Shown: positions 8,071 to 37,619 of the stretch, in pieces
Layout of the letters: each line of letters opens with the position of its first letter
Numbering within the stretch: position 1 is the first letter of the stretch
From: Aquilaria yunnanensis
Lineage: Eukaryota > Streptophyta > Magnoliopsida > Malvales > Thymelaeaceae
NCBI GenBank assembly: GCA_039654915.1
Contig: CM077598.1
Location: 75,978,041 to 76,042,040 of the forward strand
Direction: 5' to 3'
Length of the DNA: 64,000 nucleotides
Position numbers and translations under genes: made by a program
Notes under the pieces: model-generated
Told to the model about the DNA's origin: nothing
Seen by the model: the letters and a program-made list of their open reading frames with translations, nothing else
The model's database searches: none

Positions 8071-8355
8071 TGTGGCAACGTCGGGTTTTCTGGAGTCGCC
8101 ACCAATCAGTTTTTTTCTTAGGTCGATTGGTCACCTTAAAATTGGTCTGCGAGAGTTCGGGGATCGGGAGTACGGTTACGCTAAAACAATATTGTTATAG
8201 CGCCCAAAATTGGCACCTTAGTTGATTTTAATTTTGTTTTACTTTGCTTTTAAATAATTTTCAGTTAATTTAGAGATTTTAACTGAATTAGTCGAAATGT
8301 GGATTTTTAAGTTAATTTGTATAAAATTTTATACTTCCGAACCATGGACTCCCGT

Positions 8356-8786
8356 GTGCCATTTAATAATTAATTAAATAGCTAATAATAAATTAAATTT
8401 AAATTAAATTCCATGACCAGATGATTCGGTTAGAATCTATGGCTTGGATATTAATTGAAATTATTTTAAAAAAATAATAATAAAATAAAATAAAAATTTA
8501 ATAATGAAATCCGTTCGCGAATCCTCAACTCGATTAAAAGTTGATTCAGAATCTCGGTACAATTCGGAAGTATGAAAGTGGAGGTTTTCTTCTTTTTTTT
8601 TTTTTTTGTTTTGAACATCCATTAAAAAAAAAGAGATGCATAAATTAAATAACACATGCAAATAGATAAAGGGAAAACACATAAAGTAAACAAAAGAATA
8701 TCAAAAGATGATATATAAATAAATAAAGTGGGGCTTTTCGGCCATCCACTTTTTTAAAATAATAAATAGGAGGCATAACCTTCCAT

Positions 8787-8826
<40 letters not shown>

Positions 8827-9451
8827 GTTAAAGTTAGCTATTAATAAAGTTAGTAAAGTTAGTTGTTAGTATAACAAATATTAAATGGTTAGTGACAACA
8901 ATAATAATAAAAGTTAGCGGTCAGTACAGTTAATTGTTAGTATAGCAAAAATTAAAGTTAGTGGTAACAATAATAATAAAAGTTAGTGGTTAGCACAATT
9001 AATTGCTAGTATAGCAAAAATTAAATGGTTAGTGATGTTAGTTGAGTTAGTAATTAGTTTATACAAAAATTAAATAGTTAGTAATCTGAATAGAATAATA
9101 ATAAAAACAACAATAATAATAATAATAATAATAAATAATAATAATAATAATAAACATATAAAGATTATTGTTAGTTCTGTAGAAATAAAAAAGGTTAGTG
9201 ACTTGTATAAATAAAAATAAAAAAAATGGAGAATAAGAGAAGAATTGTACCGAGATTCTGAATCGACTTTTAATCGAGTTGAGGATTCGCGAACGGATTT
9301 CATTATTAAATTTTTATTTTATTTTATTATTATTTTTTTAAAATAATTTCAATTAATATCCAAGCCATAGATTCTAACCGAATCATCTGGTCATGGAATT
9401 TAATTTAAATTTAATTTATTATTAGCTATTTAATTAATTATTAAATGGCAC
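8356..9451. repeat. Long inverted repeat: two 210-bp arms, 676-bp spacer
   Basis: Arm 8356-8565 is almost exactly the reverse complement of arm 9242-9451. The outer end is GTGCCATTTAAT and the inner end GTACAATTC, against GAATTGTAC. The spacer holds ATA/AAT microsatellites (about 8787-8826 and 9104-9151) and short tandem repeats. A transcript of this part would form a 210-bp hairpin. The corresponding part of the other G LTR lacks the second arm. Confidence 0.85.
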
Positions 9452-10479
9452 AGATAGACTGAATATTTCCTAGGTGTGATTTTTATTATGTCAAACTAAT
9501 TTTAGATTAATTAAAAAAAGTTTATCTAATCTAATCATATAATTATGCTTAACATTAATTCCTCAGTTAATTTACAAATTTAATTATTTGAGCAAACGAA
9601 AAGACAATAAAAGGAAATCAATGTGCGAATTGTAAATCAAAACAAACTCAAAGTTCAGATGAATAAATCAAATAAATCCAAGGAAAAATTATTTATTAAA
9701 ATTACCTATTTAACTTAATCATATAATTAAGCTTAATGTCAATCCCTAAGTTAATTTATGCTTTTAATTAGCTGAACAAACAAAAGTATAATAGAAAATA
9801 AGTGAATTAATGACTTAATTGCAAAAATTAAAACTAAGTTAAAGTATCAATTAGACAAATCCAATAAATTCATGAGCAAAAATTAAAATTATGTCAAAAT
9901 TATAGGCTTTCATAACAGATCCGGACTACGAGTCGGTTCGCCATCGGGATTTCGTTATTAAATTTTAATTTAAATAATTTCAGTTAATATCCAAGCCATG
10001 GATTCTAACCGAATCATCTGGACATGGATTTTGTGATTTACTATCATCCTAAATTCAGTTTTTTAGAATTTTATTAAAACCCGTTCAAAATTGAATCTCG
10101 TAAAGATGATCTTTCAAATATGTTATGTAAACATGTGTTTTAAACTTATGCTAACAATGAAAAGTTAAAATCAATATATAAGTAAATATCTGATCTAATT
10201 TAAACATACAATTTTATATTAACTTATCAGCAAATTCATGATCCAAAATAATAAGACGAGCAATTGAACAAAAATAAACAAAAATATAGATAAAAACAAT
10301 GCTGTCAATGATTGATCTGCAAAGAAAATAAGGTTAGTGACTTAAATGGATAAAACAAAGGAAACCAGGGGCTAAACCAGAATTTTTACCCAAAAACAAA
10401 GAGTTTTGACATAGTCAAAACGAAAAACGCGTCAGTTTTTTTTGTTTTTTTTTTTTGTCTTCGCTTTCTGTTTCATTCC

Positions 10480-11030
10480 GGCGTCGAGCCGGCAGCGGCT
10501 AGGGGGCACTGGGGGGTCGCGACGGCATGCTCAGCAGCTGGGGCGGCGAGCAGGCTGGGAGGCGGTGCGGCAAGCTGGGAGGCGGCGAGACAGTGAGGGG
10601 AGGCCGGAGAGCGTCGGACGGGGCAGCGCGACGCGAAGGAAGAGCAGCAGCGCGAGCAGGAGGCTGGGCTGGCGAGGAGTGAGCAGTGGAGGGAGATGAC
10701 AGCGGCAACGAGAGGGGGTCAACGGCTGGCGAAACGGGACGCAGACGGGTAGGAGACAGAGGAAGGAGGAGGGGAAGAGAAAGAAGGAGGCCGACCCGAG
10801 AGAAAAGGGGAAAGAAGGAGGCCGACGCGGGAGAGGAGGAGAGAGGGGGAGGCCGACGCGGGAGAGGGTATGTGACGGAGACTGGCGGCGGCAGAGGTGC
10901 AAGAGAGAAGGAAAGGAAGAGAGAAAGAGGTCTGGGCGAGAGACAGATCAGAGAGAAGAAGCTGGTGGAGGGAGACGAGAGAAAGAGAGAGGAGATTTTT
11001 TTTTTTTAAGGGAGGAGAGAGTGCTCCCCC
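10480..11030. repeat. GC-rich block passing into a purine-only-like tract inside G 3' LTR
   Basis: The first half is GGCGGCGAG-like. From about 10690 the plus strand is nearly all G and A (GGAAGGAGGAGGGGAAGAGA type). The surrounding DNA is AT-rich, so the composition shift is abrupt. Reading frames here encode Arg/Glu/Gly-rich low-complexity strings and I do not call a gene. The block is missing from the other G LTR. Confidence 0.6.
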
Positions 11031-11392
11031 CTCAAGATGAGATAAGGGAGCCAAATTTAAGGAGAGAGAGAACCCGAAGATAAGGTTCTCTAGAAGAGGG
11101 GAGAAGATAGTAGAAAAATCTAGAGCCCCCTTCTTTTTTATTTTTATTTTTATTTTTTTAATTTTTAATTAATTAATAGAAATTAATTTAATCAATTTTT
11201 TTTAATACACACACAGATACATATGTATAGATATATATATTTTAACTAACACTATAAAAAAAATGTCCCCTTAAACTAATAATATATATTTTTGTTAAAT
11301 TAATTAATTAATTTTTTTCTTTTTTTTAGTTAATAATTTTTAATTAATTAATTAATTTTTTTTTAATAGTCGGATGAAATTGGGTGTTAACA

Positions 11393-11408
11393 GCTGCCCC
11401 TCTTTGCG
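11393..11408 (-). other. Polypurine tract of element G
   Basis: On the minus strand this is ACGCAAAGAGGGGCAGC-like sequence ending exactly where the LTR (TGTTAACACCC on the minus strand) begins. This is the normal plus-strand priming site next to a 3' LTR, and it fixes G on the minus strand. Confidence 0.7.
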
Positions 11409-11499
11409 TGCTTCATGGGACATGATGTATGCAAAGTCGTTTACCAAATTTCGTCCGGCTCAGCTAGGCATTGAGAATCTTCTCGCCGCTTAAACTGTC

Positions 11500-12545
11500 C
11501 TTAGAACCTTTGCGATAGGAACTCTCCTATCGTTGAAAGAAAATTGAACAATTGATCGATTGAGTGAGGTTTAAAGAACTCTCCTTAGAGCCTCTGCGAT
11601 AGGAACTCTCCTATCGTTGAAAGAAAATTCAATAGTTGATTGATTGAGTTTGAGGTTTAAGGAACTCTCCTTAAAACCTCTACGATAGGAAAGCTCCTAT
11701 CGTTGTAAGATGGATTGATTGATTGATTGTTTGAGGTTAAGGAAAGTTCCTTAGAACCTCTACGATAGGAAAGCTCCTATCGTTGTAAGATGGACTGATT
11801 GATTGATTGTTTAAGGTTAAAGAAAGGTCCTTAGAACCTCTACGATAGGAAAGCTCCTATCGTTGTAAGATGGACTGATTGATTGATTGTTTGAGGTTAA
11901 GGAAAGGTCCTTAGAACCTCTACGATAGGAAAGCTCCTATCGTTGTAAGATGGACTGATTGATTGATTGTTTGAGGTTTAAGGAAAGGTCCTTAGAACCT
12001 CTACGATAGGAAAGCTCCTATCGTTGTAAGATGGATTGGTTGATTGATTGTTTGAGGTTAAGGGAAGGTCCTTAGCACCTCTACTATAGGAAAGCTCTTA
12101 TCGTTGTAAGATGGATTGATTGATTGATTGTTTGAGGTTTAAGGAAAGGTCCTTAGAACCTCTACGATAGGAAAGCTCCTATCGTTGTAAGATGGACTGG
12201 TTGATTGATTGTTTGAGGTTAAGGAAAGGTCCTTAGAACCTCTACGATAGGAAAGCTCCTATCGTTGTAAGATGGATTGATTGATTGATTGTTTGAGGTT
12301 AAGGAAAGGTCCTTAGAACCTCTACGATAGGAAAGCTCCTATCGTTGTAAGATCGACTGGTTGATTGATTGTTTGAGGTTAAGGAAAGGTCCTTAGAACC
12401 TCTACGATAGGAAAGCTCCTATCGTTGTAAGATGGACTGGTTGATTGAATGTTTGAGGTTTAAGGAACTCTCCTTAGAACCTCGATGATAGGAACTCTCC
12501 TATCATTAAAAGTTTGAGGTTAAGGGCCCTACCTTAGAACCTCTG
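11500..12545. repeat. Minisatellite array 1, unit 80-81 bp, about 12 copies
   Basis: The core TACGATAGGAAAGCTCCTAT recurs at about 11761, 11841, 11921, 12002, 12082, 12163, 12243, 12323 and 12403. Each unit holds the dyad GATAGGA...TCCTATC and a GATT(GATT)n run. The flanking units at both ends are more diverged. The array lies just upstream of the polypurine tract in element G, where plant LTR elements are known to grow tandem repeats. Confidence 0.9.
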
Positions 12546-12595
12546 CGATAAGAACTCTCTTATCGTTTAAGAAAAATTGATGATTGATTTCGAAG

Positions 12596-14345
12596 CTAAG
12601 GAGCTTTCCTTAGGACCTCGGTGATGAAAATTGATTGCTTTCGAGGCAAAGGTTTCATCCTTAAAACCCCGATAATGAAAATTGATTGTTTTCGAGGCAA
12701 AAGTTCCATCCTTAAAACCCCGATGATGAAAATTGATTGTTTTCGAGGCAAAGGTTTCATCCTTAAAACCCCGATGATGAAGATTGATTGTTTTCGAGGT
12801 AAAGGTTCCATCCTTAAAACCCCGATGATGAAAATTGATTGTTTTCGAGGCAAAGGTTCCATCCTTAAAACCCCGATGAAGATTGATTGTTTTCGAGGCA
12901 AAGGTTCCATCCTTAAAACCCCGATGATGAAAATTGATTGTTTTCGAGGCAAAGGTTCCATCCTTAAAACCCCGATGATGAAGATTGATTGTTTTCGAGG
13001 CAAAGGTTCCATCCTTAAAACCCCGATGATGAAAATTGATTGTTTTTTAGGCAAAGGTTCCATCCTTAAAACCCCGATGAAGATTGATTGTTTTCGAAGC
13101 AAGGGTTCCATCCTTAAAACCCCGATGATGAAAATTAGTTGTTTTCGAGGCAAAGGTTCCATCCTTAAAACCCCGATGAAAATTGATTGTTTTCGAGGCA
13201 AAGGTTCCATCCTTAAAACCCCGATGATGAAAATTGATTGTGAGGCTAAGGTTCCATCCTTAAAACCCTGATGATGAAAATTGATTGTTTTCGAAGCAAA
13301 GGTTCCATCCTTAAAACCCCGATGATGAAAATTGGTTATTTTCGAGGCAAAGGTTTCATCCTTAAAACCCCGATGATGAAAATTGGTTGTTTTCGAGGCA
13401 AAGGTTCCATCCTTAAAACCCCGATGATGAAAATTGGTTGTTTTCAAGGCAAAGGTTCCATCCTTAAAACCCCGATGAAAATTGATTGTTTTCGAGGCAA
13501 AGGTTCCATCCTTAAAACCCCGATGATGAAAATTGGTTGTTTTCGAGGTAAAGGTTCCATCCTTAAAACCCCGATGATGAAAATTGGTTGTTTTCGAGGC
13601 AAAGGTTCCATCCTTAAAACCCCGATGAAAATTGATTGTTTTCGAGGCAAAGGTTCCATCCTTAAAACCCCGATGATGAAAATTATTGTTTTTGAGGCAA
13701 AGGTTCCATCCTTAAAACCCCGATGATGAAAATTGATTGTTTTCGAGGCAAAGGTTCCATCCTTAAAACCCCGATGAAAATTGATTGTTTTCGAAGCAAA
13801 GGTTCCATCCTTAAAACCCCGATGATGAAAATTGGTTGTTTTCGAGGCAAAGGTTCCATCCTTAAAACCCCGATGAAAATTGATTGTTTTCGAGGCAAAG
13901 GTTCCATCCTTAAAACCCCGATGATGAAAATTGGTTGTTTTCGAGGCAAAGGTTCCATCCTTAAAACCCCGATAAAAATTGATTGTTTTCGAGGCAAAGC
14001 CGATGATGAAAATTGGTTGTTTTCGAGGCAAAGGTTCCATCCTTAAAACCCCGATGATGAAAATTGGTTGTTTTCGAGGCAAAGGTTCCATCCTTAAAAC
14101 CCCGATGAAAATTGATTGTTTTCGAGGCAAAGGTTCCATCCTTAAAACCCCGATGATGAAAATTGATTGTTTTCGAGGCAAATGTTCCATCCTTAAAACC
14201 CCGATGATAGGAGCAGTCCTACCGTTGATTGTTTTCGAGACAAAGGTTCCATCCTTAAAATCCCGACGATGAAAATTGATTATTTTCGAGGCAAAGGTTC
14301 CATCCTTAAAACCCCGATGATGAAAATTGATTTTGAGGCTAAGGA
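12596..14345. repeat. Minisatellite array 2, unit 48 or 51 bp, roughly 34 copies
   Basis: The unit is built on GAAAATTGATTGTTTTCGAG and GGTTCCATCCTTAAAACCCC. Copies differ by presence or absence of a 3-bp GAT, giving 51- or 48-bp units. Because both lengths are multiples of three, long reading frames with a 16-17 residue period stay open on both strands. I take these as by-products of the repeat. The unit is a shortened relative of array 1: it shares GAGG..AAAGG, the TCCTTA(A/G)AACC block and GATTG. A hybrid unit at about 14205-14225 still has the GATAGGA...TCCTA form. Confidence 0.92.
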
Positions 14346-14876: not shown

Positions 14877-15506
14877 TTATGGGAGTGAACTGGTCGGGAA
14901 AGACTGTCGTGTCCAGTCTATCTGAATCATTGCTGGATCTGGTTCAGGAACAAAAACTTGTATTTTATCTAGCAATTCTTCAGCAGTTGTTGCGGATATT
15001 ATGATTCCCCGTGCCACTCTTGATATGAAATTCTTCTGCATAGCATAATCCATAAAAGCTATCAGACCTGTAAAGAAATTGTTAATATTTAAAAGCCCAA
15101 TGGGTTTCTTATGCAAATTAAGTTGGGCCATGGAAGCAATTTGAAAGACTTCTCCCAATGTGCCAAAACCACCTGGTAGAGCGATAAAAGCATCAGCATT
15201 TAAAAGCATTTGTAACACACGCTCTTGCAAATTTTTAACCACTAATTCTTCTCCAATCGTGCCCCCAGAAACAAATTTCAAAGGTCCAGGGATGATGCCC
15301 AAAACTTGACTTCCTCCTAAAGATGCTGCTGATGCTACACCTCCCATTAATCCGACACTACCTCCTCCATAAACTAAATGTATTTTTCGCTCAGCTAATA
15401 CTCTACCCAAATGGTTGGCTGCCTTTAAATACTCTTCATCTTTTCCAGGAAAAGCCCCAGAAAATACACAAATACTTCGGGATTTACGAGTTGGGGTTTT
15501 CTCCAT
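14877..15506 (-). CDS. LOG-like cytokinin riboside 5'-monophosphate phosphoribohydrolase, intronless captured copy
   Basis: This is a 209-residue protein of the LOG family (TIGR00730 type, once annotated as lysine decarboxylase). LOG enzymes release active cytokinin base and ribose 5-phosphate from cytokinin nucleotides. Visible landmarks are [12 protein letters not shown] at residues 48-58 and the signature PGGFGTLGE at 111-119, which fits PGGxGTxxE. The length is typical of the family. I start at 15506 rather than at the in-frame ATG at 15593, because the longer form would translate across a TATA box at 15539-15546. Plant LOG genes usually have several introns. This frame has none, which suggests capture through RNA. 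It lies in element G's sense orientation. Phe replaces the usual Tyr in the signature, and the Arg-Lys pair expected before it is altered (LQERVLQM), so activity is uncertain. Confidence 0.85.
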   Translation of the reverse strand: MEKTPTRKSRSICVFSGAFPGKDEEYLKAANHLGRVLAERKIHLVYGGGSVGLMGGVASAASLGGSQVLGIIPGPLKFVSGGTIGEELVVKNLQERVLQMLLNADAFIALPGGFGTLGEVFQIASMAQLNLHKKPIGLLNINNFFTGLIAFMDYAMQKNFISRVARGIIISATTAEELLDKIQVFVPEPDPAMIQIDWTRQSFPTSSLP

Positions 15507-15538
15507 TCCTATCCTTACCCTTGTGAGAAAAGAGGATA

Positions 15539-15546
15539 TATTTATA
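15539..15546 (-). promoter_or_regulatory. TATA box of the LOG-like gene
   Basis: The minus strand reads CTCTATAAATATATCC, about 33 bases before the chosen ATG. A start about 30 bases downstream would give a very short leader. The same CTATAAATA element precedes two of the zinc-motif genes in G. Confidence 0.6.
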
Positions 15547-15603
15547 GAGATGAAGAGATAAGGCAATAATTTTATTTTCAAGAATGGATACATTATTGCC
15601 AGC

Positions 15604-15924: not shown

Positions 15925-16475
15925 CTATGAATCGGCGATTTGCATCCCATCCAGTTTTCTCACAAACTGGCAAATTGGGTAGTTTAAAGTCAGATTCCCA
16001 AGACTATAACGATCTCATTCTTTTTGGAGAATTATCCATAATCCAACAATCTCAAATTGCACTATTCCGCAAGAATGCGCTTCAAGAACCTCTCGAATAT
16101 CTTCTCGAGATTCCTTACGCAAGCCATTCTTAATGAATCTTATTCTATCATTACGATTTCTGGTGATCACTCCTGGAGAACGACATTTATTGCCGCAAAT
16201 CCACCATCCACAATTATGACAAACGCCTAGCCTCTTTGCTCTTTTTTTTTTTTGGCATAAGCGCTTTTACCAAAGCCGGGCATACGGGGAAAGAATGCTT
16301 CTGGAACTTCACCAGCTGAATGAACCTTAGCTTCAATTAGCCACCGCACATTATCAGGAATGCCTTTGTGCACAAATACTCTGAATCGTTCACATCTAGC
16401 TTGATAAATCTTTTTAAGAACATTTATTGGGAAGGAAGGAAAATACTTTCGTAGGGCGGAAAGAGAAGACTCCAT
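15925..16475 (-). pseudogene. Zinc-motif protein, unit 1, frameshifted
   Basis: This is the third member of the family at 27726-28274 and 28564-29112. The first 80 codons read well (MESSLSALRKYFPSFPINVL...). The frame is then lost in a run of twelve A on the minus strand (TATGCC then A12 near 16247-16258), just where the relatives have AAAAGGCGAAGA. After a frame change the motif CHNCGWWICGNKC is intact (Cx2Cx4Cx3C), but further stops follow. The homologous stop codon is at 15925. A TATA box lies at 16542-16549. It looks like a gene killed mainly by A-run slippage. Confidence 0.75.
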
Positions 16476-16549: not shown

Positions 16550-16580
16550 GTGATAAAAGGGATAATGCGTTAATTACACT

Positions 16581-17447
16581 TGATGGCCCAGGGCCTCATC
16601 GTTGTGAGTCATGATGACTGTTGAGGAGACTTCTAGGAGGAAGAACGCCTGGAAGGTGGATCGCCTCTAGGAGAGTACCTGGAAAACTGAGAAACAGGGT
16701 TAGGAGGCCCCCGGAGTGTTTTTCCGGGGGGGGAGCCTCCGACGCCCAAGTCAGTGGTGGCCGGAAGAAGGAGAAAGTCACTAGCTCAAAGAGAAAGGCA
16801 GAAAAGTCTCGCCTGGTCTTTTCTCAGAGTATGGGAGCTGTATCTCCGGCCTGCCAACCTCCTGTCAAGTATTTATTTCCTGTATATATAGGAATACCTA
16901 GCCCGTTCAGATCATGACACGTGTGCGGTCGGATGCTCCTGAACGTCTGGGCGTAGGGGACAGATAGTTGGTAGCTAGATGGCCTCGAGCCTTGTGCTGA
17001 GACGGGCCATGATATGATTCTGATGGCGTCTGCGCGTCAGGGCGACCTTTTACGTCTGTGGTGGGACGTGTCAGAGGCTTCCTTAAATGCTTCCTTAAAT
17101 GCGCCTGCCGTACTCCCGAGGTCCCTGGGCGAGGTCGTTCTCTAGTTCGGACAGAGCCTCTTCGGGAAGCCTACCCTCAGTTCGGGGGTTCCCAGTTCCA
17201 GGGGGTTCCGCCTTCGGGGATATCATGTTCGGGCAGCAATGTCTGGTGCCACTTTTCCGAAGGCGCGTTGTTCACAACCTTGGGGGGCGAATGGAGTCCT
17301 CAAGTTTTACTGGCGTGCCGAGGCTCGGAGCTCTCAGGCTATCTCCCGAGGTGCATGATTCCACCTATTCCCGGGAAGCGCCAGTTCTTCCGGCCGTTGT
17401 TGTGGCAGGGTATTCGGCCAGATTGAGGCGACAGCCTTTGGCTATCA
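16581..17447 (-). repeat. Left LTR of element A (867 bp)
   Basis: TGATGGCC...GGCTATCA, flanked by ACACT at 16576-16580 and at 17448-17452. By eye it appears identical to the LTR at 26735-27601, and what follows it (17453-18165) is also a copy of the flank beyond that LTR. On its own this piece looks like a solo LTR plus host flank. It is not preceded by a polypurine tract, unlike the 3' LTR of element B. Confidence 0.85.
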
Positions 17448-17571
17448 ACACTTACAGAAGCAAGTACATTATTGTCAAAAGAAAAGACAAATGACAGCTT
17501 ATATGTACAGGAATCATGACCGTGGCTCTCATCTTCCACTGATTTATGTCCAGTAATGGCTTCAATGCCTT

Positions 17572-18120
17572 CTATAAGTCGGGGATTTGCTTCCCATCCA
17601 GTTTTCTTACAAACTGGCAAACAGGGTCGTTTACAGTCACATTCCCAAGACTGTAACGGTCTCGTTCTTTATGGTAAGTCCTCCACAATTTGACAATTTG
17701 ACCTTGCACTTTTCCACAAGAATGCGTTTCAAGAGTCTCTCGGATATCTTCCAGAGATTCCTTACGCAGGCCATTCTTAATGAATTTTCTTTTATCTTCA
17801 CAATTTGTGGAGATGTATCCTAAAGAGTGACATTTAGTATTACAATTCCATCGCCCACATTTATAACACACGCCTAGTCTCTTTGCTCTTCGCCTTTTGG
17901 CATAACGGCTTTTACCTAAACCGGGCATGCGGGGCATAAATGCATCTGGAACTTCACCCGCCAAATGGACCTTAGCTTCAATTATCCACTGCACATTATC
18001 GGGAATGCCTTTGCGTGTAAAAACTCTAATTCTTTCACATCTAGCAAGGTAGATCTTTTTAAGGACTTTTATTGGAAGGGAATGAAAGTATTTTCGCAGT
18101 GCAGAAAGAGTAGAATCCAT
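17572..18120 (-). CDS. Zinc-motif protein, unit 2, duplicate copy
   Basis: This encodes the same 182 residues as the gene at 27726-28274; see there for motifs. It lies in the 1585-bp block 16581-18165 that duplicates 26735-28319, offset by 10154 bp. Its upstream region is cut 46 bp before the start codon, where a 39-bp piece of its own 5' end (18162-18200) is repeated and fused to the accessory ORF of element A. It therefore lacks the TATA box that the other copy keeps. Confidence 0.7.
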   Translation of the reverse strand: MDSTLSALRKYFHSLPIKVLKKIYLARCERIRVFTRKGIPDNVQWIIEAKVHLAGEVPDAFMPRMPGLGKSRYAKRRRAKRLGVCYKCGRWNCNTKCHSLGYISTNCEDKRKFIKNGLRKESLEDIRETLETHSCGKVQGQIVKLWRTYHKERDRYSLGNVTVNDPVCQFVRKLDGKQIPDL

Positions 18121-18161
18121 TGATGAGAGAAGAATTTGAGAGAAGAGGGAAATGAATCAGT

Positions 18162-18200
18162 TATTTTCGCAGTGCAGAAAGAGTAGAATCCATTGATGAG
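18162..18200. other. Rearrangement junction with 39-bp templated repeat
   Basis: After TTATT at 18161-18165, where the duplicate stops matching the right flank, the sequence jumps back and repeats 18088-18126 (TATTTTCGCAGTGCAG...GATGAG), then joins GGAACCTCTTCTT of the accessory ORF. TATT is shared at the first switch. Confidence 0.75.
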
Positions 18201-24200: not shown

Positions 24201-26766
24201 GGCGCTGGACTTCGGTTTTCACAAAGTTGCTTTTGTGGGCTGAGATGCTTCGTTTCTTTTGCCTGACAGGTTTTGCTTCCGGGCTTACTTTGAGGCTGTG
24301 CTGTATTATGCCAGGGTTCACTCCTGGCATGTCTTTCGGCGAGTAGGCAAACAGATCTTTATTTTTTAGCAGAAAGGATACAAGATTTTCCTTATCACCT
24401 TTGGCCAAGCTCTTCCCTATTCGGGTAGATTGTCCTGGGACAAGATCTACTGCTTCCGTTTCTGCTTCTGGGGGATCTCCTTCTTTGCCTTTCTCCTGCG
24501 CCTTTGCCTCCACCGTTTGTGTAGAGCTGTTTGCCGGAGCCTTTCGTGTTTTTACAAACACCTTTCTTACCTCGGCTTGGTCGATGAAGACCTCTGCATC
24601 TCCATCCTTGGTGGCGAATGTGACAGTCAAGTACTTCACATCGGGGCGAATGTGCAGGTTCCCCTGAGTCTGCCTTCCAAGGATGGCGTTGTACGAAGAC
24701 GGGACATCCATGACGATGAATCTTGTCATTGTGGACGCGTACAACTCAGCTGCTCCGCCTACCGAAGTGCCTTTCATCATCAAAGGGAGGTCGATCCATC
24801 CGAGGACGGGTAGTTCGGATGGCCCAACGCCGAAGGTGGGCGTGGTGACAGGTTTCAGCTCGCTGCTGGTGATGCCCAGGCTCGGCAGTAAGTGCGAGAA
24901 TAGGACGTCAGCATTTGAGCCATCATCAAGCAACACTCTCTTGACGTCCCAGTTCCCTATTCTCGCCATTATCAGCAGCGGGTCGTCGTGGGGGAAGACG
25001 ACAGTGGAGCCATCTTTGCGAGCCAATTTCTTTGATGGACTTTGATACTCCATAACAGCAATTTCTCTGGCCTTCCGCTTTCTTTCCGAGGATGGGAGCC
25101 CCGTGGTGATGGTTTGGATGACCCCTACTGGAGGTGGAAGGCGCCTTTTTGGACTTCTGTTTCTCCGCCTGTCGGAGTCATAGTCCTCGTTTTCGGCCCT
25201 CTCTTCCTCCTCTTTTCTGCCTTTAGGGGAGGGCATCCGCAGATACTTGCGAAGTTGGCCCTGTTTGATCAGCGACTCTATGTACTTCTTCAGCTGGAAG
25301 CAGTCTTCGGTGTCATGACCGTGGTCGCGATGAAACTGGCAGAACTTCTTGGCATTCTTCTTATTATCGGCGGCCATGGCCTTTGGCCGCCGAATCTGCG
25401 TCCCTTGCCTCTCCAGCGCCATGAGAATGTTGGTCCGTGTCGTGCTCAAGGGTGTGAAACTTTGAGGTTTCTTTCCTCGCATTCGCCGTGGTCGACCTGT
25501 GTGTTCAGAAAGATACCGAGCTTGCTGGCTGGACCCTTCGGCGCGGTGATGATCAGACTTCGGCCCTGCCATCCTCAATTCCTCGGCTGTCATGTGCTGC
25601 TCTGCCCTTCGGTAAAATTCTCCGAGGGTCTCCGGGGGGTCCTTTGAGAACTCGTAGAACAGCTGTGAGTCACGCCGAAGGCCCCGTGTCATAGCGAGGA
25701 TGCGGATTTCGGGCCGGAAGTCCGGGACGCTGAGTGCTTCCCTGTTGAATCGTTCGACATAGTCTCGGATCGTCTCTCCGTTTCTCTGCTCTATGTCGAA
25801 CATCTGTACAGGCATTTTGGCCGTCGGCCTGCTCCCAATGAACTGCTGGGTGAAGGCTGTGGACAACTCCTGAAACTCAGTTATAGTCCCTGGGGGCAAC
25901 GAATTGTACCATGCTGTTGCTGGGCCCGTGAGGGTGACTTCAAAGCATTTGCACATGGTAGCGTCATCAGCTCCGTGCATTATCATGCTCCGCCTGTACT
26001 TCGTCAGATGGGCCTGTGGATCAGTCCGGCCATCATAGATCTCCAGCCTAGGCACTCTGAAGTCGCCTGGCATAGCTGCCTCAACGACGGTGCGAATAAA
26101 CGGGGAGCCATCTTCGCATAACGCCCCCGACAGCCTGTCCCAAACGGGTTTTCTGGTCACTTGCTTTTCCACTCTGTCCAGCCGTGCCAATATCCTTTCC
26201 ATAAGCGCAGTGGCGCTAGGACCATTTTCGCGGGAGGGTAATCGACGGCGCCTTTTCGGGGAGCGAGCTCGGCGCGGAGGGGTCAGGGCCCTCACCTCAG
26301 GCGACGAACTGCTTCGCTGTGAGACTCTCGGTCGCTTGGACCCGGTTTGTCCCACAGGCCGTTTCCCGAGGGCTATATCTTCTGTGGATGATTCTCCGCG
26401 AGGATCTCCACTTTCTGAACTGCGGTGTGTAGACTTGGGGCTTCTCTCCCGAGGGCGTGTTGATGAGGAGGGTTTCTGGGCCTGCGACTGCTGTGGCCAT
26501 CTTCGGTCGATCTGCTGAGTCATTTCAGCAACGACCGAGCGCTGAAAGTCCCTCAAGAAGCTCATGGTGATTACCAGAGGGCGGTCCTCCTCGGGCGTAG
26601 AAGTCTCTGGGAGTGTCTGCTCAGCAGCCGGTTGTATCTCAGGCGCGGACGAGGACCTTGGGAGTCCCTTGTCCTTAGAACGCCGAGTCTCAACGACGGC
26701 AATCTGCGAGCGGGTTCCCACAGACGGCGCCAAATGATGGCCCAGGGCCTCATCGTTGTGAGTCAT
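21268..26766 (-). CDS. Intact gag-pol polyprotein of element A (Ty3/gypsy, Tat lineage)
   Basis: A single 1832-residue frame. In order: gag core about residues 239-340 (PGDFRVPRLEIYDGRTDPQ...), zinc knuckle variant CQFHRDHGHDTEDC near 472 (CX2HX4HX4C), aspartic protease LLDDGSNADVLF near 609, reverse transcriptase about 880-1050 with YVDD near 987, Ty3-type RNase H about 1140-1260, a second RNase H about 1274-1392 (LHVDGASGS, DSQLV), then integrase with HHCC finger 1483-1522 and D, D, E near 1552, 1613 and 1648 (GIDLIGP, ADNGSQF, NGQVEVSN). Two RNase H domains mark the Tat lineage. The ATG is inside the LTR and translation crosses the PBS (HHLAPSVGT). No stop or frameshift is present, so recent activity is likely. 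The polypurine side is rearranged, so this copy may not be mobile now. Confidence 0.95.
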   Translation of the reverse strand: MTHNDEALGHHLAPSVGTRSQIAVVETRRSKDKGLPRSSSAPEIQPAAEQTLPETSTPEEDRPLVITMSFLRDFQRSVVAEMTQQIDRRWPQQSQAQKPSSSTRPRERSPKSTHRSSESGDPRGESSTEDIALGKRPVGQTGSKRPRVSQRSSSSPEVRALTPPRRARSPKRRRRLPSRENGPSATALMERILARLDRVEKQVTRKPVWDRLSGALCEDGSPFIRTVVEAAMPGDFRVPRLEIYDGRTDPQAHLTKYRRSMIMHGADDATMCKCFEVTLTGPATAWYNSLPPGTITEFQELSTAFTQQFIGSRPTAKMPVQMFDIEQRNGETIRDYVERFNREALSVPDFRPEIRILAMTRGLRRDSQLFYEFSKDPPETLGEFYRRAEQHMTAEELRMAGPKSDHHRAEGSSQQARYLSEHTGRPRRMRGKKPQSFTPLSTTRTNILMALERQGTQIRRPKAMAADNKKNAKKFCQFHRDHGHDTEDCFQLKKYIESLIKQGQLRKYLRMPSPKGRKEEEERAENEDYDSDRRRNRSPKRRLPPPVGVIQTITTGLPSSERKRKAREIAVMEYQSPSKKLARKDGSTVVFPHDDPLLIMARIGNWDVKRVLLDDGSNADVLFSHLLPSLGITSSELKPVTTPTFGVGPSELPVLGWIDLPLMMKGTSVGGAAELYASTMTRFIVMDVPSSYNAILGRQTQGNLHIRPDVKYLTVTFATKDGDAEVFIDQAEVRKVFVKTRKAPANSSTQTVEAKAQEKGKEGDPPEAETEAVDLVPGQSTRIGKSLAKGDKENLVSFLLKNKDLFAYSPKDMPGVNPGIIQHSLKVSPEAKPVRQKKRSISAHKSNFVKTEVQRLLDAEVIREVKYPEWLSNVVIATKEGSSKLRMCIDFRNLNDACPKDSFPLPPIDQLVDSTAEYGLLSFLDAFSGYHQIRMDPEDEEKTAFITEGGTYCYIRMPFGLKNAGATYQRLMNKVFKDQMGRNMEVYVDDMIVKSKLPGYHVADLEETFQKLRAFGIRLNPEKCMFGVTSGKFLGYMVSERGIDANPEKIKALLEFRTPATVKDVQRLTGRITSLSRFISRYGDRCRPFFKVLTKAAKMEGDLGRNSHPWDEDCQKAWEELKVYLASLPTLRQPREGEPLVLYLAVTEKAVSSVLIKEEGPKQWPVYYVSKSLHGAEVRYPLLQKAIYALVLAGRRLRPYFQAHPIIVRSSLPLRDVMKRVDHSGRLSKWCIELGEHEITYEPRKAIKAQALADFIAEIPTTEENHSDPKEGEPEWTLHVDGASGSEHQGAGIVIRGPEGLEVMKAIKFSFNVTNNVAEYEALIAGLRLARKIGVRSLRAHSDSQLVVRQTAGDYGAKDPILAKYHELVRNLIQEFDAVRVENVPRRNNTEADCLAKSKTYTEVLDHPSISVLSVTTSGMGWKDPIKRYLAENELPEDAGSAARLRRRAGRFFLIGEELYRQGYANPLQRCVGEEDTEIVLEEVHEGMCGSHVGTDALAAVILRQGYFWPTLRKDARQFVQKCGSCQRHAKIQRIPSEMVTSADYPWPFAVWGIDLIGPLPTAPGGVKFCVVAVDYFSKWVEAEPLATISAKEVQKFVWKNIVCRFGIPRVLVADNGSQFIDKGFQEFISDLGIKMHFAPVAHPQSNGQVEVSNRTIKDGLRKRLGEAKGKWPGELQSVLWSYRTTPRRATGETPFSLVFGTEAIIPIEIVQPSIRVQVFDEGGNDLGLRTKLDLVAEHREIAELRRKAFQQRVAAAINLKARPKEIKKGDLVLRKADFAPRRPSHGVLRANWEGPYLVLAEVRKGVYKLGDAEGVELKNTWHSDALKKFYA
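26715..26732 (-). other. Primer binding site of element A
   Basis: TGGCGCCGTCTGTGGGAA on the minus strand, two bases from the LTR end. It is translated as part of gag. Confidence 0.85.
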
Positions 26767-27601
26767 GATGACTGTTGAGGAGACTTCTAGGAGGAAGAAC
26801 GCCTGGAAGGTGGATCGCCTCTAGGAGAGTACCTGGAAAACTGAGAAACAGGGTTAGGAGGCCCCCGGAGTGTTTTTCCGGGGGGGGAGCCTCCGACGCC
26901 CAAGTCAGTGGTGGCCGGAAGAAGGAGAAAGTCACTAGCTCAAAGAGAAAGGCAGAAAAGTCTCGCCTGGTCTTTTCTCAGAGTATGGGAGCTGTATCTC
27001 CGGCCTGCCAACCTCCTGTCAAGTATTTATTTCCTGTATATATAGGAATACCTAGCCCGTTCAGATCATGACACGTGTGCGGTCGGATGCTCCTGAACGT
27101 CTGGGCGTAGGGGACAGATAGTTGGTAGCTAGATGGCCTCGAGCCTTGTGCTGAGACGGGCCATGATATGATTCTGATGGCGTCTGCGCGTCAGGGCGAC
27201 CTTTTACGTCTGTGGTGGGACGTGTCAGAGGCTTCCTTAAATGCTTCCTTAAATGCGCCTGCCGTACTCCCGAGGTCCCTGGGCGAGGTCGTTCTCTAGT
27301 TCGGACAGAGCCTCTTCGGGAAGCCTACCCTCAGTTCGGGGGTTCCCAGTTCCAGGGGGTTCCGCCTTCGGGGATATCATGTTCGGGCAGCAATGTCTGG
27401 TGCCACTTTTCCGAAGGCGCGTTGTTCACAACCTTGGGGGGCGAATGGAGTCCTCAAGTTTTACTGGCGTGCCGAGGCTCGGAGCTCTCAGGCTATCTCC
27501 CGAGGTGCATGATTCCACCTATTCCCGGGAAGCGCCAGTTCTTCCGGCCGTTGTTGTGGCAGGGTATTCGGCCAGATTGAGGCGACAGCCTTTGGCTATC
27601 A
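26735..27601 (-). repeat. 5' LTR of element A (867 bp)
   Basis: TGATGGCC...GGCTATCA, with the PBS at its left and target duplication ACACT at 27602-27606 on its right. The U3 carries CACGTGTCATGATCTGAAC and CCTATATATACAGG near 27040-27085. The gag start codon (26764-26766) is 32 bases from its end. Same length as the LTRs of element B. Confidence 0.9.
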
Positions 27602-27725
27602 ACACTTACAGAAGCAAGTACATTATTGTCAAAAGAAAAGACAAATGACAGCTTATATGTACAGGAATCATGACCGTGGCTCTCATCTTCCACTGATTTA
27701 TGTCCAGTAATGGCTTCAATGCCTT

Positions 27726-28274
27726 CTATAAGTCGGGGATTTGCTTCCCATCCAGTTTTCTTACAAACTGGCAAACAGGGTCGTTTACAGTCACATTCCC
27801 AAGACTGTAACGGTCTCGTTCTTTATGGTAAGTCCTCCACAATTTGACAATTTGACCTTGCACTTTTCCACAAGAATGCGTTTCAAGAGTCTCTCGGATA
27901 TCTTCCAGAGATTCCTTACGCAGGCCATTCTTAATGAATTTTCTTTTATCTTCACAATTTGTGGAGATGTATCCTAAAGAGTGACATTTAGTATTACAAT
28001 TCCATCGCCCACATTTATAACACACGCCTAGTCTCTTTGCTCTTCGCCTTTTGGCATAACGGCTTTTACCTAAACCGGGCATGCGGGGCATAAATGCATC
28101 TGGAACTTCACCCGCCAAATGGACCTTAGCTTCAATTATCCACTGCACATTATCGGGAATGCCTTTGCGTGTAAAAACTCTAATTCTTTCACATCTAGCA
28201 AGGTAGATCTTTTTAAGGACTTTTATTGGAAGGGAATGAAAGTATTTTCGCAGTGCAGAAAGAGTAGAATCCAT
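27726..28274 (-). CDS. Small basic Cys-motif protein, unit 2 (virus NABP-like in outline)
   Basis: 182 residues. The N-terminal 65 residues are probably helical (LRKYFHSLPIKVLKKIYLAR). Then come an arginine-rich stretch GKSRYAKRRRAKRLG at 69-83, the cysteines C85, C88, C93 and C97 (Cx2Cx4Cx3C), and a conserved GYISTN block. A C-terminal extension of about 75 residues follows. The order basic stretch, then CxxC pair and second Cys pair, is what I associate with the cysteine-rich nucleic-acid-binding proteins of carlaviruses and relatives (PF01623). The spacing between Cys pairs is shorter here and the C-terminus is longer, so this is a resemblance and not an assignment. Unit 3 is about two-thirds identical with the frame intact, which suggests selection. 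It lies in the sense orientation of element G. A likely role is RNA or DNA binding. Confidence 0.75.
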   Translation of the reverse strand: MDSTLSALRKYFHSLPIKVLKKIYLARCERIRVFTRKGIPDNVQWIIEAKVHLAGEVPDAFMPRMPGLGKSRYAKRRRAKRLGVCYKCGRWNCNTKCHSLGYISTNCEDKRKFIKNGLRKESLEDIRETLETHSCGKVQGQIVKLWRTYHKERDRYSLGNVTVNDPVCQFVRKLDGKQIPDL

Positions 28275-28394
28275 TGATGAGAGAAGAATTTGAGAGAAGA
28301 GGGAAATGAATCAGTTATTGTAGGAGACTGGAAAAACCGAATTTAGAAGTCACGGGGTATCTTATCCGCTGCTTAATCAGAAGGAAGAACACGC

Positions 28395-28563: not shown

Positions 28564-29112
28564 CTATGAGTCGAGGATTTGCTTCCCATCCAGTTTTCTT
28601 ACAAGCTGGAAAACAGGGTCATTTACAGTCAGATTCCCGGGACTGTAACGGTTTCGTTCTTCATGAAAAATGCTCCATAAACCAAGAAGTTCACGTTGCA
28701 CAGATCCACAAGAATGTGTCTCAAGAGTCAATCGGATATCATCCAATGAGTCCTTACTCAGGCCATTCTTGATGAATCGTATTTTATCTTCTCGATTATC
28801 GGAGATCATTCCTAAAGAACGACATTTAGTATTACAAGTCCACTGTCTACATTTGTGGCAGACTCGTAACCTTTTCGCTCTTTGCTTTTTGGCATAAGAG
28901 CTTCTGCCTATACCAGGCATGTGAGACACAAATGCCTCTGGGATTTCGCCTGCCAGACGAACCTTGGCTTCGATTAACCACGGCACATCTTCAGGGATTC
29001 CTTTGTGCATCAGAACTCTTAATCGTTCACAGCGAACTTGGTAGATCTTTTTTAGAATGTTCATTGGGAGAGAAGGAAAATATTTTCGTAAGACAGAAAG
29101 AGTAGGATCCAT
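28564..29112 (-). CDS. Small basic Cys-motif protein, unit 3
   Basis: 182 residues, same length and stop position as unit 2, about 68% identical by hand count. The motif is kept: GRSSYAKKQRAKRLRVCHKCRQWTCNTKC holds the basic stretch and Cx2Cx4Cx3C (shown here only to locate it within residues 69-97). C-terminal block NDPVFQLVRKLDGKQ is also kept. Most differences from unit 2 are scattered and conservative. It is the first gene after the long leader of element G. No good TATA box is seen upstream. The family resemblance and caveats are those of unit 2. Confidence 0.72.
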   Translation of the reverse strand: MDPTLSVLRKYFPSLPMNILKKIYQVRCERLRVLMHKGIPEDVPWLIEAKVRLAGEIPEAFVSHMPGIGRSSYAKKQRAKRLRVCHKCRQWTCNTKCRSLGMISDNREDKIRFIKNGLSKDSLDDIRLTLETHSCGSVQRELLGLWSIFHEERNRYSPGNLTVNDPVFQLVRKLDGKQILDS

Positions 29113-30459: not shown

Positions 30460-30912
30460 CACAATACCAGCCTTTTAACTGAATGAGGATGATATCGAGA
30501 GGTAAATGTTAGGTGTGAGGAAAGTTAAGTTTGAATGTTTTTTTTTTTTTGTGGCAGTCTTTTAGCTGAATGAGAATAATATTAAGAGGTAAATATTAGA
30601 TCTGAGTAAAGTTAAGTTTGAGTGGTGTGAAAGAAGGGTATTTTAATACTACTCGTGAGCAGTATTAAATAAGGTAGAAGCATGATTCACAATGATAGTC
30701 TTTTAACTGAATGAGGATGTTCAGTCTGAGGAAAGTTAAGTTTAAGTGGTGTGGGAGAAGGGTCTTTTAATACTACTCGTGAGCAGTATTAAATAAGGTA
30801 GAAGCATGATTCACAATGATAGTCTTTTAACTGAATGAGGATGTTCAGTCTGAGGAAAGTTAAGTTTAAGTGGTGTGGGAGAAGGGTCTTTTAATACTAC
30901 TCGTGAGCAAAT
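30460..30912. repeat. Tandem repeats with AATACT...AGTATT dyad, 124-bp unit
   Basis: The last two units are essentially identical and 124 bp apart (AAGGTAGAAGCATGATTCAC at 30671 and 30795). Two older, diverged units precede them. Each unit carries TTTTAATACTACTCGTGAGC followed by AGTATTAA, a six-base stem. Confidence 0.85.
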
Positions 30913-32684
30913 TTGATTATGGTGAAAAACTCAATAGTGATGACCTTAACTTGCCACTCTTTCCAGAAAGTTAGACCTCATCTATTGCCCCCCAACTATT
31001 GTGATCTTTATGCATGCTTGGTTTGAGGGTTGCTTTTGTGTTCTAAACCGCATTTGCAGGTTTTCAGTCTAGAATCCATAGCTCACTTTTTTTGTTTTCT
31101 TTCTTTTGCTCTAACTTGAGCCCTTTTTCCCTCTTTTTTTTTTTTGTTTTTTTTTGTTTCCCCTTTTTTTTTTTGTGAGCTATGGTGATGACATACTTGA
31201 TAACTCTCTTGAAGTGAGATGACTCAAGTGGCCTTGCTTGCTCGTGCTTGTTCTCAGTCCTTTTTGGTTTTGAATTTTCCCTTGTTGTCTTTTGATGGAA
31301 GGGATGAATTTCTCTTTTCGGAGTTTGTGTTGCAAAGAACTGAGATCATAGCCCTTTTGAAGTGAAATGATTCAAGTGGCCTTAGTTGCTTGTGTTTGCT
31401 CTCAGTCTCTTTTTTTTGTTTTGGATTTTCCCTTTAATGGCTTTTGATGGAAGGGATGAACTTCTTTCCTTTGTTGGAATTTGTGTTGCGGAAAACTGAG
31501 AATCTTTTTTTTTTTGTATTGAGCATTTGTGAGAATTGGGAGGTCACTGATGTCATTTAATATGAGAGCTACCTTGTTTGGAAGCTAACCCCAGACTTCT
31601 TGCAAGGATGTTGATAACCACTATGAATTCTTTTTTTGAGAGTTGGGGTGCAACATATGAAATCCTTCATACTAGATTTGACAGCACTTTCAAGATCGCC
31701 ACTATTAAATCTCCCTTAACTTTTTATTTTCACCCACGAGTAGTATCGTTTTCAAAGTAAAGTGTGATAGCAATAATGGATAGTATAATGGAAAGGAGTG
31801 AGAGATGGATATAAAAACGGAATTTTTGGTAAGGAGTGGTAGAATGTGTAGGTGTAATAATTGAATTTTTGGTAAAAATTGGTAGAATGTGTAGATGTAA
31901 TAATGGAATTAAAAAGTGGTAGAATGCACACATAACATCTTTTTGTTGGAGAACAAAAAGAATTACCAGTTGTCAAAAAGTAAAGTGTGATGGCAATAAT
32001 AGATAGTATAATGGCAAAGAGTGTAAAAATGGAAAGTAGTAGAATGCACGCATTACATCTTTTTGTTGTACCAGAAAAAGAATACCAGGTGTCCATCTAA
32101 CAAAGACTACACCCTAGATTCTGGACTAAATCTAGGAGATTTTTACTATTAGATTACTTTTGCAAGCTTTCAAAGATACAAGTTTATTCAAAGGATTCCC
32201 TGTCATTCAAAAGTGTGTGCGGACTATTAGGTCAAATCTGACTTGGAGCCCTTCCAAAATTAATGTAATTCCAGCTCAAAATCTTCACTTTCAATTACCA
32301 ATCACATCGGGCCTAGCAACTTGGACTCGACCAACTGTTGGACCTTGAATTTCAATATGACAGAATTTTCAGTTACATTTGGGATTTGGGTCACACCAAC
32401 TTGGAAGAGAAGGTCACTTGGTCTTTACTACTATTGATATAGATGATAGCAGAATGCCTTCTTCAGCAAAGACTGTGATTAACTTTCCTTCAAAAATGAA
32501 TTTCATTTTTTGGTGTAATGAGGAGGGAATTGCTCCGGCCATATTTTCTATCTTGGACTCTATATCTATGAGACGTCCTTCGGTTTGTTCTGTCATTAGT
32601 CTTGTTTGGAGCCGAGTTGGATATCGGTGTTGAGGTCCAATTTTACCTTTTTAAAGGAATATTTATTTTATTAGACTCTACATG

Positions 32685-32845
32685 TATGTAATTGATGCAA
32701 TGGATGCATGCAATACATAATGAGATTATGTTTTTTATCAAAATTTATATGCACGTGATTGATGTAATGGAATACATGCAATGAGATTATTTTTATCAGA
32801 TTTTATATGCATGTGATTGATGTAATGGATGTATGCAATGAGTGA
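32685..32845. repeat. Three tandem units, about 65-70 bp
   Basis: Units share TATATGCACGTGATTGATGT-type sequence followed by AATGGA, TGCAATGAGATTAT and TTTTATCA. They lie inside the leader of element G. Confidence 0.7.
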
Positions 32846-33562
32846 GCTTGATTATCAACTATTGTGAAACTTCAAGACTTCTAGTTATTATTATAAAGAC
32901 CAAAAAGTTAGCATAATTTGATGCGTGGTTTTGATGCATGAAGAATAATTGCACAGAACAGAAGTATAACAAAAGAAAAATAAGGTTATTAACAAGTTAA
33001 ATAGTAATTAACAACTCATGAAGTATTATGGATAAACAAGTTAAAACCATACGAAGAAAAGTGTAGAGTAACAACACAGCATAACAAGGATATGCTTATG
33101 GTGTTGGTAAAATGGTAGAAATTCTATGGTCAGTTCTATGGTTAAGTGGGGAGTTCTATATGCATAAGGTGGCTTATCAAAAAGGCAAGGGATAGTTCCC
33201 GAATCCCGTCACTAAATCATAGTGACGGCCCGATTCCTTACCCTCTAGGGTTAATGTAAGGAATGGATTAATTCGAGTCGTAGCTTTTCGTGGGCCCATG
33301 CAGAGACTAACCGTCTCAGGAGGCAATACACTACTTTGTTACTTTGAAACCGGTGAAGGCTTGGAGACCATGGCCTCACAAGGACAACAACACCAATTCC
33401 GCTTAGAAAGAATTGTGTTCGATTTGAGAAAGCTCGGGTATAGAGCTTCATATTGTGAATGCATTATGCATGTTTAGAATAAGTAAATATAACATATAAA
33501 TCCACATAATAAGCAAAGTAAATCAAAACAAATCAACTTTAGGCTCGACTCACTAACCAGAG

Positions 33563-33580
33563 TCCCCAGCGGAGTCGCCA
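33563..33580 (-). other. Primer binding site of element G
   Basis: The minus strand reads TGGCGACTCCGCTGGGGA, three bases from the LTR. Its complement, TCCCCAGCGGAGTCGCCA, fits the 3' end of a plant tRNA-Arg of the GACTCC... acceptor type with added CCA. The tRNA identity is from memory. Ogre elements are known to use tRNA-Arg. Confidence 0.7.
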
Positions 33581-33583
33581 AGC

Positions 33584-35467
33584 TGTGGCAACGTTGGGTT
33601 TTCTTGGAGTCGCCACCAATCTGTTTACCTAGGTCGATTGGACACCTTAAAATTGGTCTGCGAGAGTTCAGGGATCGGGAGTACGGTTACGCTAAAACAA
33701 CTTTGTTATAGCGCCCAAAATTGGCACCTTAGTTGATTTTAATTTTGTTTTGCTTTGCTTTTAGAAAATATTCAGTTAATTTTCAAACTAGAAATTTTAA
33801 CTGAATTAATCGGATGTGGATTTTTAAATTAATTTATATAAAATTTGATACTTCCGAACCATGGACTCTGCCGAGTCATTTGGACACGGAAGATTTAATT
33901 CCGAACCATGGACTCTGCCGAGTCACCCGGACACGGAATTTGATGAAATTTTAAATAAATTAATCCATATTGTAAATATGGATTTTTACCTTTTTATTTA
34001 TTTAATTTTTAAAAAGTTGATATTTTCCAAACCGTAGATCCTGCCGGATCATGCGGATATGGAAATTATTTATAGTTAATTATTATTTTATTATTTTATG
34101 GAATCAATTATTAGTTTAACTTATAAGCCTTTTTTATTAAATTTGTTAATGATTTTTAAAAAAATCTTTCTTTTTTATATCTTATTATTCTTTTCTTTCT
34201 TTTCTTTTCTTTTCTTTATCTTTTTGATTTTTATCTTTCTCTTATCTTTCTTTTCTTTTTCTTATCTGATTTTTCTTGTTTAATGAAGGATATTTATTAT
34301 TTAAAGAATTACTCAATTTATAAAAGAATTAAAAAAAATAATTAATTTTTTATTTAATAAGAAGTTAATTTAAAGGAATCAAAGAGTTTAAAAATAAAAA
34401 TCTTTGATCATGGTACGGGGCGTTGTTACTCAGCCAGACCCTCTTCACCAGGTGAAGCAGCTCAAAAGCGGGCACGAGACAGTTTCCGGCCAATATACCA
34501 TGAACTAAAAAAAATTTTTTTTTTGACTTAACAACATGGTTCAGATTTATTTTACATATATATTTTTTTATGGCTAATTTCTTTAAATGAAATGAGTTTA
34601 ACCATAAAATAAAGAAAAATTAAATAATAATAAATAAAGTGGAGGTTTTCTTCTTTTTTTTTTTAGTTAATTAATAGAAATTAATTTAATCAATTTTTTT
34701 TAATACACACACAGATACATATGTATAGATATATATATTTTAACTAACACTATAAAAAAAATGTCCCCTTAAACTAATAATATATATTTTTGTTAAATTA
34801 ATTAATTAATTTTTTTCTTTTTTTTAGTTAATAATTTTTAATTAATTAATTATTTTTTTTTTAATAGTCGGATGAAATTGGGTGTTAACAGCTTGGCAGT
34901 ATAAAATTAGTATAAAAGCACATTTCGGAAGTATAAAATTTTATGAAAACCCCAACTCGTAAATCCCGAAGTATTTGTGTATTTTCTGGGGCTTTTCCTG
35001 GAAAAGATGAAGAGTATTTAAAGGCAGCCAACCATCTGGGTAGAGTATTAGCTGAGCGAAAAATACATTTAGTTTATGGAGGAGGTAGTGTCGGATTAAT
35101 GGGAGGTGTAGCATCAGCAGCATCTCTAGGAGGCCAAAAACGTCGGTCGACCCAAAAATTCATGTGACAAACTACCAAATGCTCCTGGAACTTTCAGAAT
35201 TTGTCAATTTTTCCCGAAACTTCTTAATTTTGTCATTTTTACCTCAAACTTTTAAATTTTGCCATTTTTTGGAGTTTTCTTTTTTTCTTTCAAATACACA
35301 CATATATCATTTTAAATCAAATATTCACAAAACAAAAATGTATTTTAAGCTAATTAAAATTTTTAGTAATCATAATAATAATAAAAATAATAATTTTTTA
35401 TTTAATTTCTTTTATTTAATTTCTTTTAAAAAAATTTTTTATGGTCGGACGAAATTGGGTGTCAACA
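33584..35467 (-). repeat. 5' LTR of element G (1884 bp, rearranged)
   Basis: TGTGGCAACG...GGTGTCAACA, next to the PBS and bounded by AGTGT. Compared with the 3322-bp 3' LTR it lacks the inverted repeat and GC/purine block: sequence like 8575 is fused to sequence like 11165 near 34655. It also holds an internal copy of the LTR end (GGTGTTAACAGC at 34880-34892), which includes the first bases of the internal region, followed by a LOG fragment and a second LTR end. The segment 33850-34060 carries three related CCATGGACTCTGCCGAGTCA-type motifs. Confidence 0.75.
34944..35133 (+). pseudogene. 190-bp inverted fragment of the LOG-like gene inside G 5' LTR
   Basis: It matches codons 3-65 of the LOG-like gene (15500 down to about 15311) with two base differences that I can see (CATTTGGG to CATCTGGG, TCTTTAGG to TCTCTAGG). 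It is on the plus strand, opposite to the LOG-like gene and to element G. A chance ATG at 34943 opens it, and it ends abruptly at GGAGG|CCAAAA. It cannot encode an enzyme because the PGGxGTxxE region is missing. Confidence 0.9.
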
Positions 35468-35472
35468 AGTGT

Positions 35473-37617: not shown

Positions 37618-37619
37618 TG

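Follow-up and report, generated by a model that had tools for sequence, protein, structure and literature searches.

Within a 64,000-nucleotide stretch of Aquilaria yunnanensis DNA (assembly GCA_039654915.1, contig CM077598.1, positions 75,978,041 to 76,042,040 of the forward strand; hereafter the window), which is plant nuclear DNA rich in gypsy elements, we characterized a 27.4-kb long terminal repeat (LTR) insertion at positions 8071–35467, designated G, whose sense strand is the minus strand. We consider it probable that G represents a gypsy-type LTR element of plants that is non-autonomous and bears a recurrent accessory module, namely tandem cassettes for a nucleic-acid-binding protein (NABP) followed by a LOG gene, with a putative functional role for the element. 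The structural and family assignments within this reading appear highly secure; the functional part is put forward as a tentative proposal.

Four zinc-motif open reading frames (ORFs) are present in G, all on the minus strand: three are intact (copies B1, 17572–18120; B2, 27726–28274; and C, 28564–29112), and the fourth (copy A, about 15928–16475) is broken by frame changes and stops. In Pfam searches, copy B (B1 and B2 being identical) passed the curated cut-offs of both Viral_NABP (32.4 bits, cut-off 23) and Carla_C4 (25.8 bits, cut-off 20.9), and copy C passed that of Carla_C4 (23.8 bits) and stayed slightly under that of Viral_NABP (21.4 bits); at E ≤ 0.01, matches were obtained among family members for Viral_NABP in 39 of 39 and for Carla_C4 in 38 of 39. 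An earlier note on this DNA had described a zinc-motif gene family of small nucleic-acid-binding proteins, a description that holds in general terms and can now be given a family, as these matches identify the genes as homologues of the NABP of Betaflexiviridae. A host zinc-finger family was considered as their identity and rejected, since Pfam gives NABP. In excerpts of two papers that turned up in the literature search, the label PF01623 denotes another domain.

A search with a single NABP sequence retained 67 proteins from 100 candidates, and a profile search 487 relatives from 4700 candidates, of which the best 120 were inspected; among the matches listed, those bearing an organism name were from plants throughout (Xanthoceras, Acer, Rhamnella, Orobanche and Populus). 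NABP was not found in plasmid records, nor in viral contigs searched by single sequence or by alignment. With 39 rows, the NABP alignment has 24 invariant columns, and with 82 rows it has 5; in the 82-row alignment, the CX2CX4CX3C cysteines and KKRRAK, a basic stretch, show little or no variation. The resemblance to the viral NABP/CRP, for instance p12 of chrysanthemum virus B (CVB; excerpts of PMC7588395), lies in common Viral_NABP and Carla_C4 matches over this basic-cysteine core, whereas the plant protein differs in its predicted 182 amino acids, in conserved N- and C-terminal parts of its own and in being carried by plant DNA elements. According to the same excerpts, CVB p12 combines nuclear transcriptional activation with cytoplasmic silencing suppression (PMC7588395).

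An NABP gene next to retroelement sequence was also found outside the window. The 3.3-kb contig L001 (DAIEQH010000041.1, 1–3330) holds a gypsy integrase ORF (194–1594; rve and H2C2 domains) followed on the same strand by an NABP gene (1787–2347). The integrase domains assign it to gypsy, and it presumably belongs to the Athila lineage. L001 is filed under a Candidatus Nomurabacteria metagenome-assembled genome and is plant by content; it looks like plant contamination of that genome. In two further proteins, P0054 and P0062, NABP is joined to additional stretches, of which Pfam named the NABP part only, and the additional stretches look like an integrase C-terminus and a protease.

Comparison with L001 indicates that the NABP cassette is kept beyond its reading frame. 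Identical positions between L001 and copy C amount to 88/115 in the leader, 63/77 in the 3′ untranslated region (UTR) and 28/46 at fourfold sites, and those between L001 and copy B to 82/110, 57/78 and 21/38, respectively; the UTR alignments allowed gaps and free ends, which favours the UTRs, and their values lie far above those of shuffles. The homology with the cassette of G begins in L001 at a splice-acceptor-like CTTTCTCTGCAG, and the NABP of an autonomous L001-type element may be expressed by splicing. In G, TATA boxes are located upstream of the ATG of LOG (41 nt), copy A (75 nt) and copy B2 (128 nt), suggesting that LOG and NABP A and B may each possess a promoter of their own; no TATA box was found within 220 nt upstream of copies C and B1 or of the L001 NABP. 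Between copies B and C, dN/dS was 0.32 (bootstrap 0.20–0.49), and it was 0.23 and 0.22 for B and C against L001, where dS is near saturation.

The LOG ORF (14877–15593, minus strand) probably starts at M30 (15506), giving a predicted gene at 14877–15506. It matches the LOG family (Pfam PF03641, 8e-30; plant LOG structure PDB 2a33, At2g37210, 4.5e-51), and its retained catalytic Arg and PGGxGTxxE motif predict a phosphoribohydrolase. Among the best 120 of 4118 LOG matches, the Arg is present in 115 and PGGxGTxxE, by pattern, in 108, and the Lys following the Arg occurs in 6 (114/120 lack it). An LxLxL sequence lies within the last 14 residues in 98 of these 120 matches; this tail, seen among P0073–P0187, resembles an EAR repression motif. 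In viral contigs, LOG gave one 35% match (L002).

In a LOG tree of 28 rows, 24 of them chosen from the 120 listed matches, the window LOG pairs with P0068 (100/100), its closest counterpart among the proteins retrieved (89%), and the window LOG and the 24 others are set apart from two Arabidopsis LOGs (98/95). Its grouping with the retrieved matches, apart from the Arabidopsis proteins, speaks against the window LOG having been taken recently from an ordinary LOG gene of the host, which modifies the earlier interpretation. Reevesia genes make up 43 of the 120 listed matches and are spread over 16 chromosome labels; given this distribution and the LTR-element consensuses described in excerpts of PMC9289625, this LOG type is probably element-borne.

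Both families are, as judged from the sequences retrieved, present in other plants, and the lengths of their source contigs suggest that they occur together. Among the listed matches, source contigs of >2 kb have 43 distinct lengths for NABP and 18 for LOG, of which three are in common (8723, 4511 and 2425) against 0.16 expected (P about 0.0006), the comparison being one of lengths; coincident lengths under 2 kb (for example 1386, 1514, 1018 and 1161) were excluded, as chance matches are expected there. These data support the notion that the NABP–LOG pairing is not private to this copy of G. The best counterparts of the NABP cargo among the proteins retrieved were P0002 for copy C (94.5%) and P0001 for the pieces of copy A (88, 79 and 90%). 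Since copies A and C and LOG each have an outside counterpart (P0001, P0002 and P0068, respectively), the A and C lineages of NABP, and LOG, were probably separate before the insertion of G.

With regard to its own genes, G does not qualify as an autonomous gypsy element: it has neither a gag-pol nor a polymerase of its own. A tblastn search of G minus a nested element (see below) with three retroelement proteins (the integrase of L001, residues 1–120 of P0062 and the Retand polyprotein) returned one 22-residue match at E 0.51, which we take as a probable chance match. The earlier proposal that the cargo stands in place of gag-pol is thereby upheld for G itself, with the amendment that a gag-pol (21268–26766) does lie within the limits of G, in the nested element. 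As had been stated, LOG and the three intact zinc-motif ORFs are all on the sense strand of G; one of the latter, B1, is a secondary copy associated with the nested Retand element.

The borders of G are well defined. The target site duplication (TSD) AGTGT is read in the left (8066–8070) and right (35468–35472) flanks, and the joined flanks, which constitute gag sequence, form an ungapped 89-nt alignment with a related copy at 39430–39530. This empty-site comparison establishes G as one clean insertion and confirms the duplication claimed beforehand. On the sense strand, the ends read TGTT(G/A)ACACCCAATTTC...GTTGCCACA, that is, of TGTT..ACA type with the TG...CA termini of an LTR element. LTR-like end repeats connect 8071–8351 with 33584–33868 (90%) and 11148–11395 with 34646–34893 (98%); both LTRs are rearranged, and the terminal repeats are partial. 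From the repeats and the reading of the ends, we delimited a left, 3′ LTR (8071–11392, minus strand) enlarged by inserted sequence, and a right, composite 5′ LTR (33584–35467, minus strand). A purine-rich tract (AAAGAGGGGCAGC, 11393–11405, minus strand) abuts the left LTR, in agreement with the polypurine tract noticed earlier. The proposed primer binding site (PBS) corresponds to a PBS-like site (TGGCGACTCCGCTGGGGAC, 33562–33580, minus strand) that starts with TGG and begins 3 nt inside the 5′ LTR; its partner is presumably tRNA-Arg. The positions of this site and of the purine tract on the minus strand identify the right LTR as the 5′ LTR and the minus strand as sense. No exact match to the PBS-like 19-mer was found among viral contigs.

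The composite 5′ LTR has two LTR-like starts, at 35467 (TGTTGACACC) and 34890 (TGTTAACACC). Between them lies a 189-bp LOG fragment (34945–35133), identical to the LOG gene at 187/189 positions and in opposite orientation to it (plus strand in LOG sense). It was rejected as a second LOG gene, being a fragment only; if transcribed together, fragment and gene could form double-stranded RNA. Within the 3′ LTR, 211-bp inverted arms (8355–8565 and 9242–9452; 99.5–100% identical, 676 nt apart) represent either a foldback-like insertion or an inverted duplication. Tandem repeats with units of about 80 and 51 bp (11497–14213) adjoin the 3′ LTR, and long ORFs at 12596–14190 were discarded as artefacts of them. 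Three non-coding 124-bp direct repeats (30601–30972; copies 96% and 64% alike) are found between the PBS and NABP copy C.

About 11 kb of G consists of a nested gypsy element (16581–27601, minus strand), delimited by its LTR ends, domains and the TSD ACACT (16576–16580 and 27602–27606) that adjoins those ends; two further 5-mers are common to both vicinities, neither of which abuts the ends. The element encodes gag through integrase domains within its gag-pol as well as an antisense Transposase_28 ORF, a set that fits the description of the Retand type in excerpts of PMC11963269. It is foreign to the original G and younger than it. An exact 1585-bp duplication (16581–18165 and 26735–28319) indicates that the 3′ part of the nested element is replaced by duplicated sequence, and because the duplication is exact, the B1 ORF, flanked on both sides by LTRs of the nested element, duplicates B2. 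At the joint of B1 and the nested element, a partial extra copy of the start of NABP B (18145–18204) gives this joint the look of template switching. The TSDs of G and of the nested element are one 5-mer on opposite strands, which is probably a coincidence. A second Retand-type element (37619–48677) lies in opposite orientation, is about 96–98% identical to the nested one and does not contain the NABP duplication.

LOG genes in plant gypsy elements are already known; Steinbauerova et al. (2011) reportedly described two Athila-like elements with similarity to LOGL4. In section 12 of PMC9289625, which cites a 2011 report, LOG (YgdH-domain) sequences are given for consensus LTR elements from Citrus and, under less strict filtering, from Populus. 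G resembles these elements in that a LOG-type gene is carried by a plant gypsy element; they differ in that the latter were found by their own reverse transcriptase, which G lacks, and in that G adds an NABP, which is unnamed in that section. Among the titles listed in searches of the open-licence literature, none describes a viral-type NABP in retroelements or plant genomes, or an NABP–LOG pair. Within that scope, the earlier remark that no element with this pair was known is overtaken for LOG and stands for its NABP partner. A 2019 survey of extra ORFs considered those of at least 250 codons only (excerpts of PMC6317226) and would, because of this minimum, miss both LOG and NABP. With Tat/Ogre and Retand elements carrying extra ORFs (excerpts of PMC11963269 and PMC6317226), G shares its large size, the 5-bp TSD and tandem repeats before the 3′ LTR; the usual extra ORFs described there are Transposase_28 (antisense in Retand) and a plant mobile domain, whereas those of G are NABP and LOG, both in sense orientation, and a polyprotein is absent. 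A captured RNA demethylase (excerpts of PMC9289625) likewise provides plant gypsy elements with an additional gene that could plausibly act against host defence, but the gene is another one, the elements are autonomous and its biochemical activity was shown in that work.

Several observations weigh against our reading of G. The window LOG has Val in place of the Lys that follows the catalytic Arg in the three solved LOGs compared, and it is without the LxLxL tail, as is P0068. NABP copy A is broken, the nearest outside counterpart of copy B reaches no more than 78% (P0047, over 126 aa), and the coding DNA of B and C (429/549 identical, 78%) is no better kept than its flanks (77/107, 72%, and 96/122, 79%). 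Confidence in the AlphaFold model of copy B is low (pLDDT 67.9, pTM 0.33), so that the viral fold search made with it serves as supporting evidence only; it gave no match under E 0.001, the top row (E 0.098) being a silencing suppressor of chrysanthemum virus B. Nine of the first ten rows are proteins of Betaflexiviridae, and the tenth is unnamed.

Part of the evidence would fit a module that is merely a passenger, taken from an autonomous element by template switching, of no benefit to G and of importance, if at all, in the autonomous family only. The broken copy A and the tailless LOG agree with such an origin, and the partial copies and odd joints (34945–35133 and 18145–18204) show that sequence is readily moved here; on the other hand, LOG, B and C are intact, TATA boxes are present above LOG, A and B, and the dN/dS of B and C is low, though the last may stem from their ancestors. 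We regard this explanation as possible, if on the unlikely side. It is less likely that NABP serves as an RNA-packaging or chaperone protein of the element, comparable to a separately supplied gag nucleocapsid, with LOG being incidental. The conserved cysteines, the basic stretch and the tblastn result, in which no gag was found in G outside the nested element, are in line with this idea, but it leaves LOG and the shared contig sizes unexplained, and the NABP of L001, which adjoins a gypsy integrase, would belong to an element that probably possesses its own gag.

Part of the picture might be owed to misjoins in the assembly, namely the 1585-bp duplication and the composite structure of the 5′ LTR, as 100% identity over this length in a repeat-rich region might suggest. 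Such an artefact, which we consider improbable, would touch only B1 and part of the 5′ LTR, and the B1 joint, where the start of B is partly repeated, has the appearance of genuine recombination. Slightly less credible still is that host genes or an endogenous RNA-virus fragment landed in an older LTR element and never took part in its life cycle. NABP does resemble an RNA-virus gene and LOG belongs to a plant gene family, yet no other Betaflexiviridae gene was among the Pfam matches of the four G ORFs tested, and around the cargo we noticed no scars of separate insertions, no systematic search for them having been made. Moreover, NABP adjoins the integrase in L001, its UTRs are conserved, and a position after pol is partly seen already.

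Taken together, these considerations lead us to retain the reading of G as a non-autonomous element with a recurrent NABP–LOG module. In a corresponding model, G would be copied in trans by the gag-pol of autonomous relatives; NABP, by analogy with its viral homologues, might dampen small-RNA silencing and/or act as a nuclear regulator, and LOG would release active cytokinin and favour dividing cells, with the net effect that the element family would be expressed and inherited more often. A wider proposal, which we advance as doubtful though conceivable, is that a virus-like module of two genes is common to gypsy elements across several plant orders, in which NABP is a homologue of viral silencing suppressors/transcription factors and the EAR-like LxLxL tail of a modified LOG could, as we presume, recruit a TOPLESS-type corepressor. 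Like retroviral accessory genes, the module would shift the programme of host cells in favour of division and weaker silencing, and G-type non-autonomous elements would carry it without gag-pol. RNA viruses may have passed NABP to retroelements or received it from them.

As a consequence for gene annotation, plant genes that bear the name LOG may in some cases belong to elements; a possible example is Populus P0144 (LOGL10), which has the same tail and is without the Lys. For most extra genes of plant retroelements, no function is known. In the present case, two families whose roles can be approached apparently travel together and look conserved, which makes their use to the element directly testable, and the presence of a viral-type NABP in such elements is relevant to the exchange of genes by RNA viruses and retroelements.

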